Assembly (NCBI RefSeq): GCF_037996765.1
Contig: NZ_JBBNAD010000005.1
Location: forward strand, 776,001 to 840,000
DNA: 64,000 nt
Direction: 5' to 3'
DNA from: Bdellovibrio sp. GT3
GTDB taxonomy: Bacteria; Bdellovibrionota; Bdellovibrionia; Bdellovibrionales; Bdellovibrionaceae
The first letter of the stretch is position 1; each line of letters begins with the position of its first letter. Under the pieces are notes generated by a model. That model searched no databases, was not told where the DNA came from, and worked only from the letters and a program-made list of their open reading frames with translations. The position numbers and the translations under genes were made by a program. Positions 14,664 to 21,794 of this stretch are shown piece after piece.

Positions 14664-15278
14664 TTAACGTTTACCAGTAAACTTCAAGCGACGGAAATAC
14701 AGCAGACGATTGTTTGCAGGCATTTCGTAGTCCTTCACCAGCTCAAATTCATTTTTAAACATCGCACTGATAACATCTTCAAATGCGCGGATGCCGCTTT
14801 GAGGGTTGGCTTCACGCAGAGTTTTGTCGAACTCTTCGTTCGTGGGTGCGGTGAATTTGCCGTTGTAGTTGAAAGGTCCATAAATCAAAACCTTGCCGCC
14901 TTCCTGCAGGCGTCCGCTGATCAGCTTGATAAAGGTTTTGCATTCCTTCCAACTCATGATGTGAAAGGTATTGATGGTCAGGATCACATCGTAAGAGCGG
15001 ATTGGAAAATCATCTTCACCAACCTTCATGCGATACGGAGTCTTGATGTTGGGAGATCCTTCCTCCTTGATGCGGGCTTTAAGGGCCGGCAGGTTTTCGC
15101 TGACTTCAGTGGGTTGCCATTCCATTTTTGGAAAAAAGGGAGCCAGGTAGACTGCATGTTGCCCGGTTCCTGAACCAACTTCTAAAAGTCTTTGATCCTC
15201 GGGGCGGATGACTTTTTTAAGTACTTCCAGAATGGGTTCTTTGTTGCGTTCAGCAGAAGGGGAGTGAGGGAGTTCCAT
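14664..15278 (-). CDS. DUF938 SAM-dependent methyltransferase-like protein
   Basis: The 204-residue product begins PHSPSAERNKEPILEVL, a hallmark of DUF938, and has the SAM-binding LLEVGSGTGQHAVYL. The later segments INTFHIMSWKE and LIYGPFNYNGKFT match the family. DUF938 proteins are class I methyltransferases of unknown substrate. AAAGGA precedes the ATG at a good distance. Confidence 0.88.
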   Translation of the reverse strand: MELPHSPSAERNKEPILEVLKKVIRPEDQRLLEVGSGTGQHAVYLAPFFPKMEWQPTEVSENLPALKARIKEEGSPNIKTPYRMKVGEDDFPIRSYDVILTINTFHIMSWKECKTFIKLISGRLQEGGKVLIYGPFNYNGKFTAPTNEEFDKTLREANPQSGIRAFEDVISAMFKNEFELVKDYEMPANNRLLYFRRLKFTGKR

Positions 15279-15338: not shown

Positions 15339-15749
15339 CTAGTCTTCGTCCTCGTCGTCATAATCCTCATCTTCATCGTCCTCATCATCTTCGTCGTCTT
15401 CATCATCCTCATCCTCGTCTTCATCGACGTCGTCTGCGGATTCGATACGTACCAACCAACCCTCTTCGTAAGGGTCTTCCATGATGATGGATGGATCGTC
15501 GATCACTTGTGTGTTGATTTCGATAACAGTTCCGTCAACTGGAGAATAAATGTCCAGTGGGCCATCGCTGGTCTCGATTGTTCCGATCACAGCTTCAGTG
15601 TCCACTTCCTCTTGTTCAGCAGGAAGGTCCACAGAACTGATAGAATCGAAATCCTCAAGTCCGTCTTCGTTGATACCGATTGTGATCACGCCATCTTCTT
15701 GGCGGTACCACAAATAGCCCATAAAATTTTTTACGTCGTCTGATGCCAT
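15339..15749 (-). CDS. GcvH-like protein lacking the lipoyl lysine, with an acidic tail
   Basis: The middle of this 136-residue protein matches glycine-cleavage H protein: TEAVIGTIETSDGPLDIYSP, then VDGTVIEINTQVIDDP and EDPYEEGWLVRIE. In real H proteins the first segment carries the lipoylated Lys (E-S-V-K-A-A-S-D-I-Y). Here that position is Asp62, so it cannot be lipoylated there. The last ~30 residues are almost only Asp and Glu. It follows glnA by 23 bases with GGAG before its ATG and ends at a strong terminator. It is not a working H protein; a binding or scaffold role is only a guess. Confidence 0.75.
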   Translation of the reverse strand: MASDDVKNFMGYLWYRQEDGVITIGINEDGLEDFDSISSVDLPAEQEEVDTEAVIGTIETSDGPLDIYSPVDGTVIEINTQVIDDPSIIMEDPYEEGWLVRIESADDVDEDEDEDDEDDEDDEDDEDEDYDDEDED

Positions 15750-15772
15750 TTAATCTCCAGGAAAAAATACTG

Positions 15773-17188
15773 TTAACAATCGTAGTACAAGTGGAACTCG
15801 TAAGGAACTGGTCTTTGCTGTACTGGACGAACTTCTTTGTCGATTTTGTACTGCACCCACGTATCAATCAAGTCTTCACTGAAAACATCGCCCTTTTTCA
15901 AGAAACTGCAGTTTTTCATCAGATTATCCAAGGATTCTTCCAATGTTCCCGGAACAGATGGGATTTTTGCTGCCTCTTGAGGTGGCAATCCGTAGATATC
16001 TTTATCCAAAGGATCGCCCGGATTGATCTTATTGATGATACCGTCCAGGCCCGCCATCAGGATCGCTGCTTCTGCAAGGTAGATGTTCGCAGTAGGATCT
16101 GGAGTACGGAATTCAATACGTTTTGCTTTCGGGTTTGGACCTGAATTTGGAATACGCATCGCCGCAGAGCGGTTTTTGAAGCTGTAAGCCAATTTCGTCG
16201 GAGCTTCAAAGCCCGGAACCAAACGCTTGTAGGAGTTTGTCGTTGGATTGATGATACCGCACAATGCAGGAGCATGTTTTAACACGCCACCGATGTAGTG
16301 CAACGCCATCTCTGACAAACCAGCATACTTGTTACCTGCAAAAAGATTTTTACCATCTTTCCACAAAGACATATGAATGTGCATACCGGAACCATTGTCG
16401 CCAAAGATTGGTTTTGGCATGAATGTCGCCGATTTGCCGTGGCGAGCGCAAACATTCTTAACGATATATTTGAACCACATCATTTTGTCGCCCATGTTCA
16501 GGGCAGTGTCGAATTGGAAATTGATTTCACATTGACCGGCAGAAGCTACTTCGTGGTGATGGCGCTCCACACGCATCCCACAACGTTCCATCTCTTCACA
16601 AATTTCAGAGCGGATGTCTTGCAAGGTATCTGTTGGAAGCGCTGGGAAATAACCTTCTTTGGAGCGGATTTTGTAACCCAAGTTTGCTCCGCCTTCATCG
16701 CGACCTGTATTCCATACAGCTTCATTGCTGTCGACCATATAGAATGCAGAGTTTGGTGTCTGTTCAAAACGAACATCATCAAAAATGAAGAATTCAGCTT
16801 CAGGACCGAAGTACGCTGTATCAGCAATGCCTGTTGACTGCATGTAGGCGATTGCTTTTTTAACGATTTGACGTGGGTCGCGGTCATAAGGCTGCAAGGT
16901 TTCCGGCAGACATACGTCGCAGATCAAAGACAAAGTGGGCATTTCCATGAAAGGATCCATCATTGCTGTCTTGGCGTCAGGTCTGATGATCATGTCAGAC
17001 TCTTCGATGCCTCTCCAGCCGCGAATGGAGCTTCCGTCGAAGCCAAATCCGTTTTCAAATGATTCTTCTTCAAGCTGGTGAAGAGGAATGGTTAAGTGTT
17101 GCCAAGTTCCGATCATGTCACAGAACTTGAGGTCTACCATCTTCGCACCCTTTTCGTGCGCGAATTTTAAAGCTTCCTTCGCAGTCAT
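15773..17188 (-). CDS. glnA: Glutamine synthetase, type I
   Basis: The 471-residue enzyme makes glutamine from glutamate, ammonia and ATP. Motifs are DGSSIRGW near the N-terminus, the metal-binding Glu pair in [22 protein letters not shown], the [13 protein letters not shown]-site segment and the [17 protein letters not shown] arginine region. Tyr399 in [10 protein letters not shown] is at the position of the adenylylated Tyr of GSI-beta enzymes, so adenylyl control is possible. AAGGAG precedes the ATG. It lies 73 bases after glnB in the same direction. Confidence 0.97.

Positions 17189-17261: not shown

Positions 17262-17263
<2 letters not shown>
17248..17263. repeat. Palindrome related to the element at 7388
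   Basis: AGCCTTGGCGAAGGCT contains the TTCGCCAAGGC core seen at 7395-7405, here within the glnB-glnA gap and touching the glnB stop. Such a hairpin could tune expression between the two genes. Confidence 0.4.
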
Positions 17264-17657
<394 letters not shown>

Positions 17658-17837
17658 TTAAATAAAGCAAAAAGGACTCAAGCGATTTTATTATTTTAAT
17701 TTTCACATAACGCGAATCGCCACCCAATTCTAGGTTGAGCACTCTAGTTGTTTTTGGTACACAGCCCGTCCGCGCCGCTTTTTTGAGCAGCGCTTTTGGA
17801 TTCGGAAAACCACTATTGTTGTCAGACCGGGGGGATT

Positions 17838-18440
17838 ATGACTGCAACACGTTTTTTCGTATATGGATCATTGACCGAGGGGATGGTTCATTACACAAAG
17901 ATTCAGAACTTCGTGGAATCATTGAGCTTTGCCAGAATTAAGGCCAAAGCTTATCGTTTGAAGGTCGGCTATCCGGCGCTTGTAAAAGGCGGGGCTGATT
18001 TAGTACCAGGACAACTTGTTGAACTTAAAGCATCGGACCTTTTGGTCAATTTGCTGGATGAGTTTTACGGATACAATAAATTGGATCCGGACAAGAGTCT
18101 TTGCTCCAGAGAAGAAGTGGATGTTTATGTCGAGGGTTGTTCAGGCCCGGTAAAGGCATGGACTTACTTTTTGAATCCACTGAAAATGCCAGTAAATGCT
18201 GCTGTTATTGAAGGCGGTGACTGGAGAAAATCAATTGAGGAACAGCCTTTGATGACATCTAAGTTGACGGACAAGCAGTCGACTTATATTCAACGTCTGG
18301 GACGCTCCACGGGTCGTGAGATCGTACCTATTGATTTGACCCTTTATCGTGAACTGATGAACCTTGAGTTGATCGTTGATAAAGGTCGCAGACTGGCTCT
18401 ATCCAAATTGGGCCAAGAGGTATTTAGACATCTTGGATAA
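17838..18440 (+). CDS. Gamma-glutamylcyclotransferase (AIG2)-like protein
   Basis: The N-terminus RFFVYGSLTEGMVHY carries the substrate-binding YGSL motif of the AIG2/GGCT fold. The next ~100 residues fit that domain: YPALVKGG, VPGQLVEL, LLDEFYGYNK with the expected acidic residue. The C-terminal ~80 residues (from RKSIEEQPL) are helical and not part of the family core. Start at ATG 17838 has GGGGGG upstream. The 3' end overlaps the trmL start by eight bases, so the two are probably translationally coupled. Confidence 0.8.
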   Translation: MTATRFFVYGSLTEGMVHYTKIQNFVESLSFARIKAKAYRLKVGYPALVKGGADLVPGQLVELKASDLLVNLLDEFYGYNKLDPDKSLCSREEVDVYVEGCSGPVKAWTYFLNPLKMPVNAAVIEGGDWRKSIEEQPLMTSKLTDKQSTYIQRLGRSTGREIVPIDLTLYRELMNLELIVDKGRRLALSKLGQEVFRHLG

Positions 18441-18909
18441 TTCAAACAAAGTCTTCCGAATCGTATTGATTGAGCCCGAAATTCCGCAAAACACGGGGAA
18501 TATCGGGCGCACTTGTGTGGCAACGAACTGTGAGCTTCACATCGTCGGTAAGATGGGCTTTGAGATCAATGATACCAATGTAAAACGTGCGGGGCTGGAT
18601 TACTGGCCTCATCTGACGTGGCATCACCACGCGACTTTTGAAGACTGGTGGAAGCTGGTTGAGGATCCGTCGCGCGCGTGGTTTTTCACGACAAAAACCA
18701 AACGCACCTACTTTGAGCCTCAATATCAATCCGGTGACTGGCTGGTATTTGGAAAAGAAACCAAAGGATTGGATCCGGATCTTCTAGCTAAGTTCCCATC
18801 GCAAACTGTGACCATCCCGATGATCGGTGAGGGTTCGCGCAGTTTGAATCTTGCAACAAGTGTTGCGATCGCCGCCTATGAAGGCGTCAGACAAATCAAG
18901 TACACTTAG
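18433..18909 (+). CDS. trmL: tRNA (cytidine/uridine-34 2'-O)-methyltransferase
   Basis: This SPOUT enzyme should methylate the ribose of the wobble base of leucine tRNAs. It has the three SPOUT motifs: EIPQNTGNIGRTCVAT, LVFGKETKGLDPDLL and SRSLNLATSVAIAAYE, forming the trefoil knot and SAM site. From TTG 18433 the product is 158 residues, the usual TrmL length. A longer form from ATG 18376 would overlap the previous gene by 65 bases and add no family sequence. Confidence 0.92.
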   Translation: MDNSNKVFRIVLIEPEIPQNTGNIGRTCVATNCELHIVGKMGFEINDTNVKRAGLDYWPHLTWHHHATFEDWWKLVEDPSRAWFFTTKTKRTYFEPQYQSGDWLVFGKETKGLDPDLLAKFPSQTVTIPMIGEGSRSLNLATSVAIAAYEGVRQIKYT

Positions 18910-19081
18910 TTCGCTCGGTGATTTTGCAATATGGGATTAAAATCCATTAATGCAAGTAAGGTAGTTTCATTTTTTTATATTTATTTTTTCCTCTCGAGCG
19001 TGTCTGTTGGTCCTAAGTCTGGGTTTACGAATTTCCGAGTGATCTCGCGTCAATGACGCGCATAAAAAATGCCCACTTGCC

Positions 19082-19110
19082 TTGCAGCTCACATGTCATC
19101 GCGCTATCCT
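19082..19110 (+). promoter_or_regulatory. Candidate promoter giving a leaderless secA mRNA
   Basis: TTGCAG (19082-19087) and TATCCT (19105-19110) are spaced by 17 bases, and the secA ATG lies eight bases after the -10 box. There is no Shine-Dalgarno sequence before the ATG, so transcription would start at or next to it. Confidence 0.5.
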
Positions 19111-19118
19111 TATCCCCT

Positions 19119-21794
19119 ATGGTAACGCAAATACTTACAAAACTATTCGGAACGAAACACGACCGTGAAATGAAAAAGATCCAACCTATGGTGGATCGTA
19201 TCAATGCCTTGGAACCACAAATGAAGGCGCTTACGGATGAACAACTAAAAGCAAAAACTCCTGAGTTCCAGGAACGTTTGAAAAAAGGCGAAACTGTTGA
19301 CGACATTTTGCCGGAAGCGTTTGCAGTCTGCCGTGAAGCTTCGATTCGCGTTCTGGGCATGCGCCACTACGACGTTCAGTTGATCGGTGGTATCGTTCTT
19401 AACAGCGGCAAGATCGCGGAGATGAGAACGGGTGAAGGTAAAACCCTGGTGGCTACTTTGCCGGTTTACTTGAATGCTCTTACTGGTCGCGGTGTTCACG
19501 TTGTGACAGTGAATGACTATCTGGTTCGTCGTGACTCTGAGCACATGGGTCGTCTGTACGGCTGGTTGGGTCTTACCACGGGTATCATCGTTCACGGTTT
19601 GAACGATCAACAGCGTAAAGAAATGTACGCTTGTGATGTTACTTATTGCACGAACAATGAACTTGGTTTCGACTACCTTCGTGACAACATGAAGTTTGAT
19701 TTGAACGATTACGTTCAACGTCCTCACTATTATTCGATCGTGGATGAGTGTGACTCCATCCTGGTCGACGAAGCACGTACTCCGCTGATCATTTCCGGTC
19801 CGGCAGAGGCTTCCACTGAAAAATACCAAATCGTTAACGCCATCATCCCGCACTTGAAGCGCGAAACTCACTTCACAATGGAAGAGAAATCCAAAACGGC
19901 TTCTTTGACAGATGAAGGTAATGCGAAAGTTGAAGAACTGTTGGGCGTGGGCAATCTTTACGATCCACAGAACATCGAACTTCTTCACCACGTTTATCAA
20001 GGTTTGAAGGCTCACTATCTGTATCGTCTTGATGTGGAATACATGATCAAAGACGGCGAAATCGTGATCGTGGACGAGTTCACAGGCCGTTTGATGCCGG
20101 GTCGTCGTTGGTCTGATGGTCTACATCAGGCGATCGAGGCGAAAGAAGGCGTTGAAGTTAAGTCTGAGAACCAAACTTTGGCGACTATCACTTTCCAAAA
20201 CTACTTCCGTATGTACGCGAAACTTTCCGGTATGACGGGTACAGCAGACACTGAGGCGGTGGAGTTCAAAAAGATCTACAACCTTGATGTGAACGTGATC
20301 CCGACAAATAAACCGATCCGCCGTATGGATGAAGAGGACGTTGTCTATAAATCTGAGAAAGCCAAATACAAGGCAATCACAGCAGACATCAAGGAACGCT
20401 CCACTAAAGGTCAACCGATCCTGGTGGGTACTGCTTCCATCGAGAAATCCGAAGCTTTAAGCCGCTACCTTCGTAATGAAGGCATCAGACATGAAGTTTT
20501 GAATGCAAAACACCATGAGCGCGAAGCCGAGATCATTGCTCAGGCCGGTCGTAAAGGTTCTGTGACTATCGCAACAAATATGGCAGGTCGTGGTACCGAC
20601 ATCATGCTGGGTGGTAACGCCGAGATGCTTGCGAAGTCCGCTGTTGGTAACGACGAGTCTCCGGAATACACAGAGGCTTTGGCCAAAGTAAAAGGCCAGG
20701 TTGAAAAAGAACGCGCAGAAGTGCGTGAGCTTGGTGGTTTGTACATTATCGGTACTGAACGCCATGAATCCCGTCGTATCGACAATCAGTTGCGTGGTCG
20801 TTCTGGTCGTCAAGGTGACCCGGGTGAGTCTCGCTTCTATCTTTCTTTGGAAGATAACTTGATGCGTATCTTCAACGGTGAACGTATCCAAAAAATCATG
20901 GAAATGTTGAACATCCCTGAAGACGAACCAATCACAGCGAAAATGGTGACGAACGCGGTTGAGGGTGCTCAACGTAAAGTCGAAGGTCATCAATTTGATA
21001 TTCGTAAAAACCTAATGGACTACGACACTGTTATGAACAACCAACGTAACGCGATCTACGGAATGCGCCGTCGTTTGTTGGAAGGACAGGAAGTTGAACG
21101 TTCTGTTTTGGACATGCTTGGTGATGTGGTTTCCAATATCCTGGACACTTACGTTCCTGAAGATGGCAAAAAAGAAGAGATCAACACGGAAGGCTTGAAC
21201 AACTCGTTGGCACAAACTTTCGGTTTCAGAATTGACCTGGAAAACAGAGCTATTAATTCTGACATGATCATTGATCAGGTTCGTGCCGGCGTTAAAGCTG
21301 TTTACGACCGTCAAAAAGAATCCATGGGACCATTCTTTGAACAAGTTCAAAAGATGATCATGCTTCAGTCCATTGACCATCACTGGAAAATGCACTTGGC
21401 GATCATCGATAAGCTTAAAGAAGGTATCGGTTTGCGTGGTTATGCTCAAAAAGATCCTTTGATTGAGTATAAAAAAGAAGCGTTCCTGGCGTTTGAAAAA
21501 CTGAACAACACCATCAAGGGCGATGCGATTGAAAAAATCATGCGCGTTCAACTTGTGCCTCAACAGTCTGAAGAGGAAGTGTTGGAAAGCCTGCGCCCAG
21601 AGGAATCAGATTTGGATGATTTGGATTATTCTTCTCCTGCGGAGTCGGACATCGGTCATTCTCTTCCGGATTTGAGCGGTCCAAATGAACCTCCAAAACG
21701 TAAAATGACTTTCCAAAGCGGCCCTGCAGATGATCGTCCGATGAATCGCGAAGAGCGTCGTCGTATCGAAAAAGCGGGCAAAGGAAAAAAATAA
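19119..21794 (+). CDS. secA: Preprotein translocase ATPase SecA
   Basis: The ~891-residue motor drives proteins through SecYEG. Family sequence starts at [20 protein letters not shown]. Walker A is in [13 protein letters not shown], the DEAD-like box in [19 protein letters not shown], and the second nucleotide-binding fold has [17 protein letters not shown] and [13 protein letters not shown]. The helical scaffold is intact. The C-terminus ends in a basic stretch, [15 protein letters not shown], and lacks the usual Cys-x-Cys...Cys-His zinc motif. There is no ribosome-binding site; a promoter-like pair just upstream suggests a leaderless message. An in-frame ATG at 19053 would add 22 residues with no homology. 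Confidence 0.97.

Follow-up and report, generated by a model that had tools for sequence, protein, structure and literature searches.

What can a protein with the H-protein fold be doing if it lacks the lysine that carries lipoate, ends in a run of acidic residues and is encoded directly after the glutamine synthetase gene? This question is raised by an open reading frame at positions 15339-15749 of the window (the whole stretch of Bdellovibrio DNA that was analysed, 64,000 nucleotides). The original prediction had its position right and left its strand unstated; the frame was found on the minus strand, begins with ATG and has a product of 136 amino acids. We call this product Q and identify it, from the open reading frame list, Pfam, Foldseek and alignment columns, as a lysine-less H-protein paralogue.

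Fold, lipoyl position and acidic tail of Q

The expected H-protein fold was borne out by the Pfam family GCV_H, which matches Q with 81.8 bits (cut-off 22.2), and by Foldseek, in which the AF2 model of Q, a modest one (4-row alignment, mean pLDDT 65.8, pTM 0.50), retrieved H-protein or GcvH-L chains exclusively (22 from the PDB at E ≤ 0.001). As to the NCBIfam models of the GcvH type, Q stays below the cut-off in all four that it matches, namely PRK01202.1 (79.8 bits, cut-off 117), the equivalog TIGR00527 (73 bits, cut-off 115.85), the chlamydial not_gcvH model TIGR03077 (46.4 bits, cut-off 144.05) and NF045810 (GcvH_rel_desulf; 42.4 bits, cut-off 150). The last two represent homologues of the H-protein for which NCBI has models distinct from GcvH; Q is like them in this respect but, scoring below both cut-offs, is a member of neither. 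Since Q passes the Pfam cut-off, it may well be annotated as a glycine cleavage H protein, which would make metabolic reconstructions misleading.

Besides the fold, Q shares with GcvH (PF01597; TIGR00527) the residues W14 and G25, the SPV.G..E.N motif and the DP..(E)GW signature. However, it has no lipoyl lysine: in phmmer alignments of Q with the two best solved H-proteins the lipoyl loop is ungapped, ETSDGP lying over ESVKAA, so that Asp62 (codon at 15564-15566, minus strand), followed by Gly63, occupies the position of the lipoylated lysine, as had been claimed from the sequence. The multiple alignment gives the same picture. It comprised 111 rows, i.e., 84 class-level Q rows (own row included), 17 rows of a distant group, 9 GcvH rows and the locus L035, and was made from 115 loci, four of which had been removed: L115 had no match, L002 represents a gene already covered by L003, and L033 and L034 were taken to duplicate L030 and L037. 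In the lipoyl column the 84 class rows have 55 Asp, 14 Gln, 6 Glu, 4 Asn, 3 Ser, 1 Gly, 1 Thr and no Lys, while all nine GcvH rows have Lys; after it comes Gly in 83 of the 84 and Ala in 9/9 GcvH rows. Two further loci, L137 and L140 (genomes G282 and G115), stand outside these column counts, and neither shows the ESVK motif. The loss of the lysine is thus conserved in relatives, and a sequencing error as its source is ruled out, as the lysine is absent from every class row and these come from separate genomes. The protein cannot carry lipoate at the usual site, as the original prediction had stated. Q also differs from GcvH in having mostly lost the histidine of the HEW motif (kept in 14 of the 84 class rows vs 9/9 GcvH rows) and, as read by eye from the alignment, in missing the usual C-terminal helix region.

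For the genus, the median dN/dS was 0.082 for the Q core (69 of 91 pairs usable) and 0.031 for glnA (75 pairs); in genera without type I glutamine synthetase (GS-I) the medians for Q were 0.044 (g4, 7 of 15 pairs) and 0.134 (g2, 24 of 45 pairs), all values being rough because of high dS in many pairs, and the rows G284, G280, G256 and G266 being assigned to the no-GS-I set by genus. The linked Q rows of f2 and f9 provided a single usable pair (1 of 28), with a dN/dS of 0.241. Judged by these ratios, Q stays under purifying selection, including in the GS-I-less genera, and with medians of 0.04-0.13 in three genera its being a pseudogene is ruled out. That Q could be a lipoyl carrier with its lysine elsewhere, or else a decaying gene, might be argued from its score, still above the Pfam cut-off; considering the ungapped loop, the 84 rows devoid of the lysine and dN/dS well under 1, we regard this as highly improbable.

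The C-terminal tail (residues 105-136, positions 15342-15437, minus strand) is indeed almost purely acidic over some thirty residues, 29 of its 32 being Asp or Glu, and the net charge of Q (K+R-D-E) is -53 by count. The genome, of 3.58 Mb, has two places with runs of at least 12 consecutive GAN codons (10 + 2 overlapping matches), one of them the Q tail; the reversed pattern, used as a control, gave 0 matches. The other place (G000:C5:1276496-1276533, within L152 1482-2084, minus strand) belongs to a protein of 200 aa that is Lys/Ala-rich, histone-H1-like and has an acidic C-terminus; no Pfam match was found for it at E ≤ 0.01.

With a tail scored as at least 12 Asp/Glu in some 15-residue window past the core, it is present in 50/50 rows of the window's family, in 7 of the 34 class rows outside the family, in two of the 17 distant rows and in L035, and none of the 9 GcvH rows has it. 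The tail, asked about as a conserved trait of relatives, is therefore constant within the family and lacking in most other rows of the class. These counts bear on a further reading, in which Q would be an acidic chaperone or a nucleic-acid mimic, the tail doing the work and the H fold providing a mere stable base. The density of acidic residues speaks for it, and so does the occurrence of the sole other GAN run of such length in a histone-H1-like protein; but 27 of the 34 non-family class rows keep the conserved core with no tail, which indicates that the core has a role of its own, and we find this reading rather improbable.

Relation to the canonical GcvH and to glycine cleavage

Among 290 genomes drawn at the phylum level, 281 have some GCV_H match, and most genomes of the window's family have two. 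Q itself is present in 50 of the 51 family genomes (G286 being the exception), in 34 of the 45 remaining genomes of the order and in 2/2 others of the class. A second GCV_H gene of the genome under study (C5:14379-14735) scores 153.7 bits in Pfam and 163.4 bits, over the cut-off, in TIGR00527. It is located near gcvT (C5:15088-15840), about 0.78 Mb away from Q, which adjoins neither gcvT nor gcvP. With a canonical GcvH thus available near gcvT, Q is a paralogue and not the working H-protein.

In a tree of 135 rows, a branch with support of 100/99 separates 107 rows (90 class-level Q and 17 distant) from 28 rows of the GcvH type, of which 26 have the lipoyl lysine in an ESVK, ESTK or ESNK context, the exceptions being L136 and L035. 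Because the tree program issued a warning about the small number of columns and about long branches that meet, we limit the claim as follows: on the tree, the Q proteins of the class are one old paralogue family, and the distant group likely belongs with it. Five of the 17 distant rows do have Lys in the lipoyl column, where the surrounding residues are not ESVKA (EGEKQNF is one example). We therefore do not call the distant group as a whole lysine-less, and how the loss came about further back is uncertain.

As for the surroundings of the distant genes, 9 of the 17 loci (L086, L091, L093, L094, L096, L101, L103, L104 and L105) have members of a single cluster directly after the H-like gene, the one member tested (L104) having a HisKA match; a gene that looks by eye like miaB occurs in 7 of the 17.

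The retained fold allows one to suppose that Q is a pseudo-H-protein, i.e., a decoy or placeholder through which glycine cleavage or the enzymes of lipoylation would be modulated. The contact between H-protein and lipoyl synthase would suit such a role, being mostly negative on H and positive on LIAS (PMC12246082), and of the genomes tested 29 of 30 have GcvP and 25 of 25 an LplA/LipB-type enzyme. However, the LplA/LipB-type enzymes occur both with and without Q, and the HEW histidine, seldom kept in Q, is the one that in the H-protein lies near the LIAS interface (PMC12246082) and in the modelled P-protein clamp (PMC9990993). The exceptional genome without GcvP, G228, has Q and gives no match to the canonical GcvH or to GcvT either; this genome is 94% complete, and a single gap might account for all three missing genes, which in G005 of the same genus are contained in about 7 kb. 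In G280 and G190, GcvP and GcvT were found with Q as the only GCV_H gene; both assemblies are fragmented, and we give these two cases no weight. Finally, each of the 12 order genomes lacking Q has one GCV_H gene with the lipoyl lysine kept, which means that the glycine cleavage system runs without Q. A decoy role appears to us unlikely on the whole.

Gene neighbourhood and the link to glutamine synthetase

In the window, glnB, glnA and Q follow one another on the minus strand, 73 and 23 nt apart, which confirms the predicted placement of Q in a glnB-glnA unit, 23 bases past glnA. The glnB gene (17262-17600) encodes a PII protein of 112 aa (P-II, 117.9 bits), and glnA (15773-17188) a type I glutamine synthetase of 471 aa (TIGR00653, 655.5 bits, cut-off 429.15). 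The gap between glnA and Q (15750-15772) contains a ribosome-binding sequence of the GGAGA type, noticed by eye, and the hairpin scan found no terminator-like hairpin on the minus strand of this interval. The terminator announced after Q corresponds to a hairpin at 15326-15302 (minus strand) that is terminator-like by shape, with 11 pairs, 6 of them G-C; as the scan gave 2 sites overall vs 3.0 expected in shuffles, this hairpin rests on its own shape and not on enrichment. The spacing and the common strand suggest that in genomes with GS-I Q is usually made from the glnB-glnA transcript.

Divergently from this unit, on the plus strand, lie a GGACT/AIG2-like gene of cluster c3 (17796-18440, start codon as mechanically listed), a SpoU-family methylase gene of cluster c2 (18376-18909), TrmL-like by eye, and a gene of cluster c4 named secA-like by eye (19053-21794); the three form one conserved block, and the resulting order is secA-like, methylase, c3, glnB, glnA, Q. 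Beyond the hairpin, on the same strand as Q, there is a DUF938 methyltransferase-like gene (14664-15278), whose cluster occurs among the fetched loci only in L002/L003, which are the same place, and in at most one more.

Our comparison of the 84 class loci did not confirm that Q always follows glnA. It does so immediately and on the same strand in 43 of them (gap -7 to 189 nt, median 72), with glnA further upstream in 5 more; c3 lies directly upstream, without glnA, in 25, and the remaining 11 have other arrangements, several of these at contig ends or with short flanks. Loci without glnBA retain the secA-like gene, the methylase, c3 and Q, so that glnBA, in the loci that have it, separates c3 from Q. 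In 42 of the 84 the gene 3' of Q is encoded on the opposite strand; SpoVR and DUF444 genes occupy this place and orientation in L061, L080, L095 and others, and among all 115 loci the SpoVR cluster (c7) occurs in 15 and the DUF444 cluster (c9) in 8.

The frequent adjacency gives some grounds to regard Q as a dedicated regulator or partner of GlnA, similar to the GS-inactivating factors, the more so as in genomes having both Q and GS-I the former lies within 400 nt of the end of the GS domain in 39 of 48. The distribution of the two genes argues otherwise. In the 86 order genomes scored for both, Q and GS-I occur together in 48, Q only in 27, GS-I only in 5 and neither in 6; in other words, Q is found in 48 of 53 genomes with GS-I and in 27 of 33 without it, the difference giving a Fisher p of 0.32, uncorrected for relatedness. 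On a gene tree of 71 rows, the glnA-linked label requires 9 changes, 4 of which are forced by well-supported branches. As Q is present in 27/33 GS-I-less genomes and is under purifying selection there, it cannot be a partner of GlnA only; its linkage to glnA is frequent and not essential.

Glutamine synthetase control was also surveyed in 108 genomes of the order, which were searched for GlnE, the GS domain and PII. Taking as GS-I a GS-domain match of about E 1e-120 or better, and counting as without GS-I G308 (partial match) and G307 (GS of another class), neither of which is among the 86, we found GlnE and PII each in 56 of the 60 genomes with GS-I; in the 48 without, GlnE is absent from 44 and PII from 47, the weak short PII-like matches of G151, G246 and G307 being excluded. 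GlnE and PII are thus closely tied to GS-I, whereas Q is not. In 26 of the 27 GS-I-less genomes having Q, a weak GS match falls in a frame of 640-776 aa, which suggests an enzyme of the GSIII type, while G196 has a weaker match only. The c3-Q arrangement is present in 21 of these 27.

Comparison with the known small proteins of GS control does not help the GlnA reading either. The cyanobacterial inactivating factors IF7 and IF17 are functional analogues at most, no homology to Q being seen; according to PMC6316151, they carry much positive charge and attach through arginines to a negatively charged site of GS, and Glu substitutions abolish this binding, whereas Q is of the opposite charge. Taken together, we hold a dedicated GlnA partner to be improbable. 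Of the binding or regulatory role in nitrogen metabolism assigned to Q by the original prediction, binding stands as the likeliest activity, and the nitrogen part, as far as it was to run via GlnA, is unsupported; the frequent adjacency of glnA is no proof of it. The acidic tail does not track glnA: it is present in 22/22 family rows whose locus has no glnA and absent from 16 of the 20 non-family rows with glnA upstream.

The GGACT/AIG2-like gene of cluster c3 was considered as a strict partner of Q and rejected. It occurs in 66 of the 108 order genomes, among them the Q-less G097, G118 and G222, and gave no match in several genomes with Q, e.g., G226, G230 and G043. In G097, G118 and G222, c3 and glnB-glnA are found at one place with Q absent. 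A defence role of Q was rejected as well, 0 PADLOC families being found at E ≤ 0.1.

A possible binding role and its precedents

Purifying selection, the conserved turn that replaces the lipoyl loop and the strong acidity together point to binding; fold and acidity alone do not prove it, and a binding role is the most likely one. We see about an even chance that Q, whose ancestor was a carrier, now acts as a fixed and strongly acidic protein for binding or as an adaptor, and that its partner is probably basic. Q goes back to an ancient gcvH duplication and has kept the H-protein fold; the lipoyl lysine is gone, as is the adjacent HEW histidine in most members, and a short or acidic tail took the place of the usual C-terminal helix. 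The lipoyl loop has given way to a conserved hairpin of the E-T-D-D-G-P type, predicted to engage the basic partner, and members of the window's family may engage it with a disordered poly-Asp/Glu arm as well. As the H-protein turns negative charge toward lipoyl synthase, a retained acidic face of Q could meet basic partners. Whatever its function, Q does not need GS-I for it.

Several points count against the adaptor reading, among them the lysine in the five distant rows, the warning on the tree and the single pair with a dN/dS of 0.241. In addition, Q is missing from 11 of the 45 non-family genomes of the order and from 1 of the 51 family genomes and is thus not essential to the group, and its frequent linkage to glnA needs some explanation. 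A broader form of the same adaptor reading is, in our opinion, a tentative possibility. According to it, an ancient family would have passed from a swinging-arm carrier to a fixed electrostatic docking protein, with an acidic turn at the site of the arm and poly-Asp/Glu tails added several times; it would serve a conserved process unrelated to glycine cleavage or glutamine synthesis, glnBA being merely a frequent neighbour on the transcript.

H-like proteins that lack the lysine or work outside the glycine cleavage system are already known as a kind. GcvH-L of Streptococcus pyogenes (5a35), retrieved by Foldseek at rank 21 with E 2.3e-5, is an H-like protein outside glycine cleavage, as Q appears to be. 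GcvH-L is encoded with ADP-ribosylation genes and, unlike Q, keeps the modified lysine. LbpA of the sHdr sulfur oxidation pathway is likewise a GcvH homologue recruited to another pathway, but it is lipoylated and works via lipoate (PMC10332631). The open-licence PMC literature gave no description of a lysine-less H-protein beside glnA or in Bdellovibrio, and one may exist in print elsewhere; PMC12419801 names Bdellovibrio and a GcvH-like protein in unrelated passages. In general, non-carrier kin of carrier proteins show a route from a metabolic shuttle to a binding module, and a partner of Q, if found, would provide a new function in a group of predators with poorly characterised genes.

The two exceptional rows on the GcvH side of the tree are further cases of H-like proteins with a changed loop. 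In genome G065, L136 (1477-1884, plus strand) is a third H-protein paralogue, in which Arg replaces the lipoyl lysine (ESVRQ) and whose gene sits between those of a HEAT-repeat protein and a methyltransferase. L035 (1215-1712, plus strand), from Candidatus Adiutrix, is H-like, has a loop without the lysine and a long Asp/Glu tail of its own; it groups with the GcvH rows on a long branch, and the same change may have arisen here independently.
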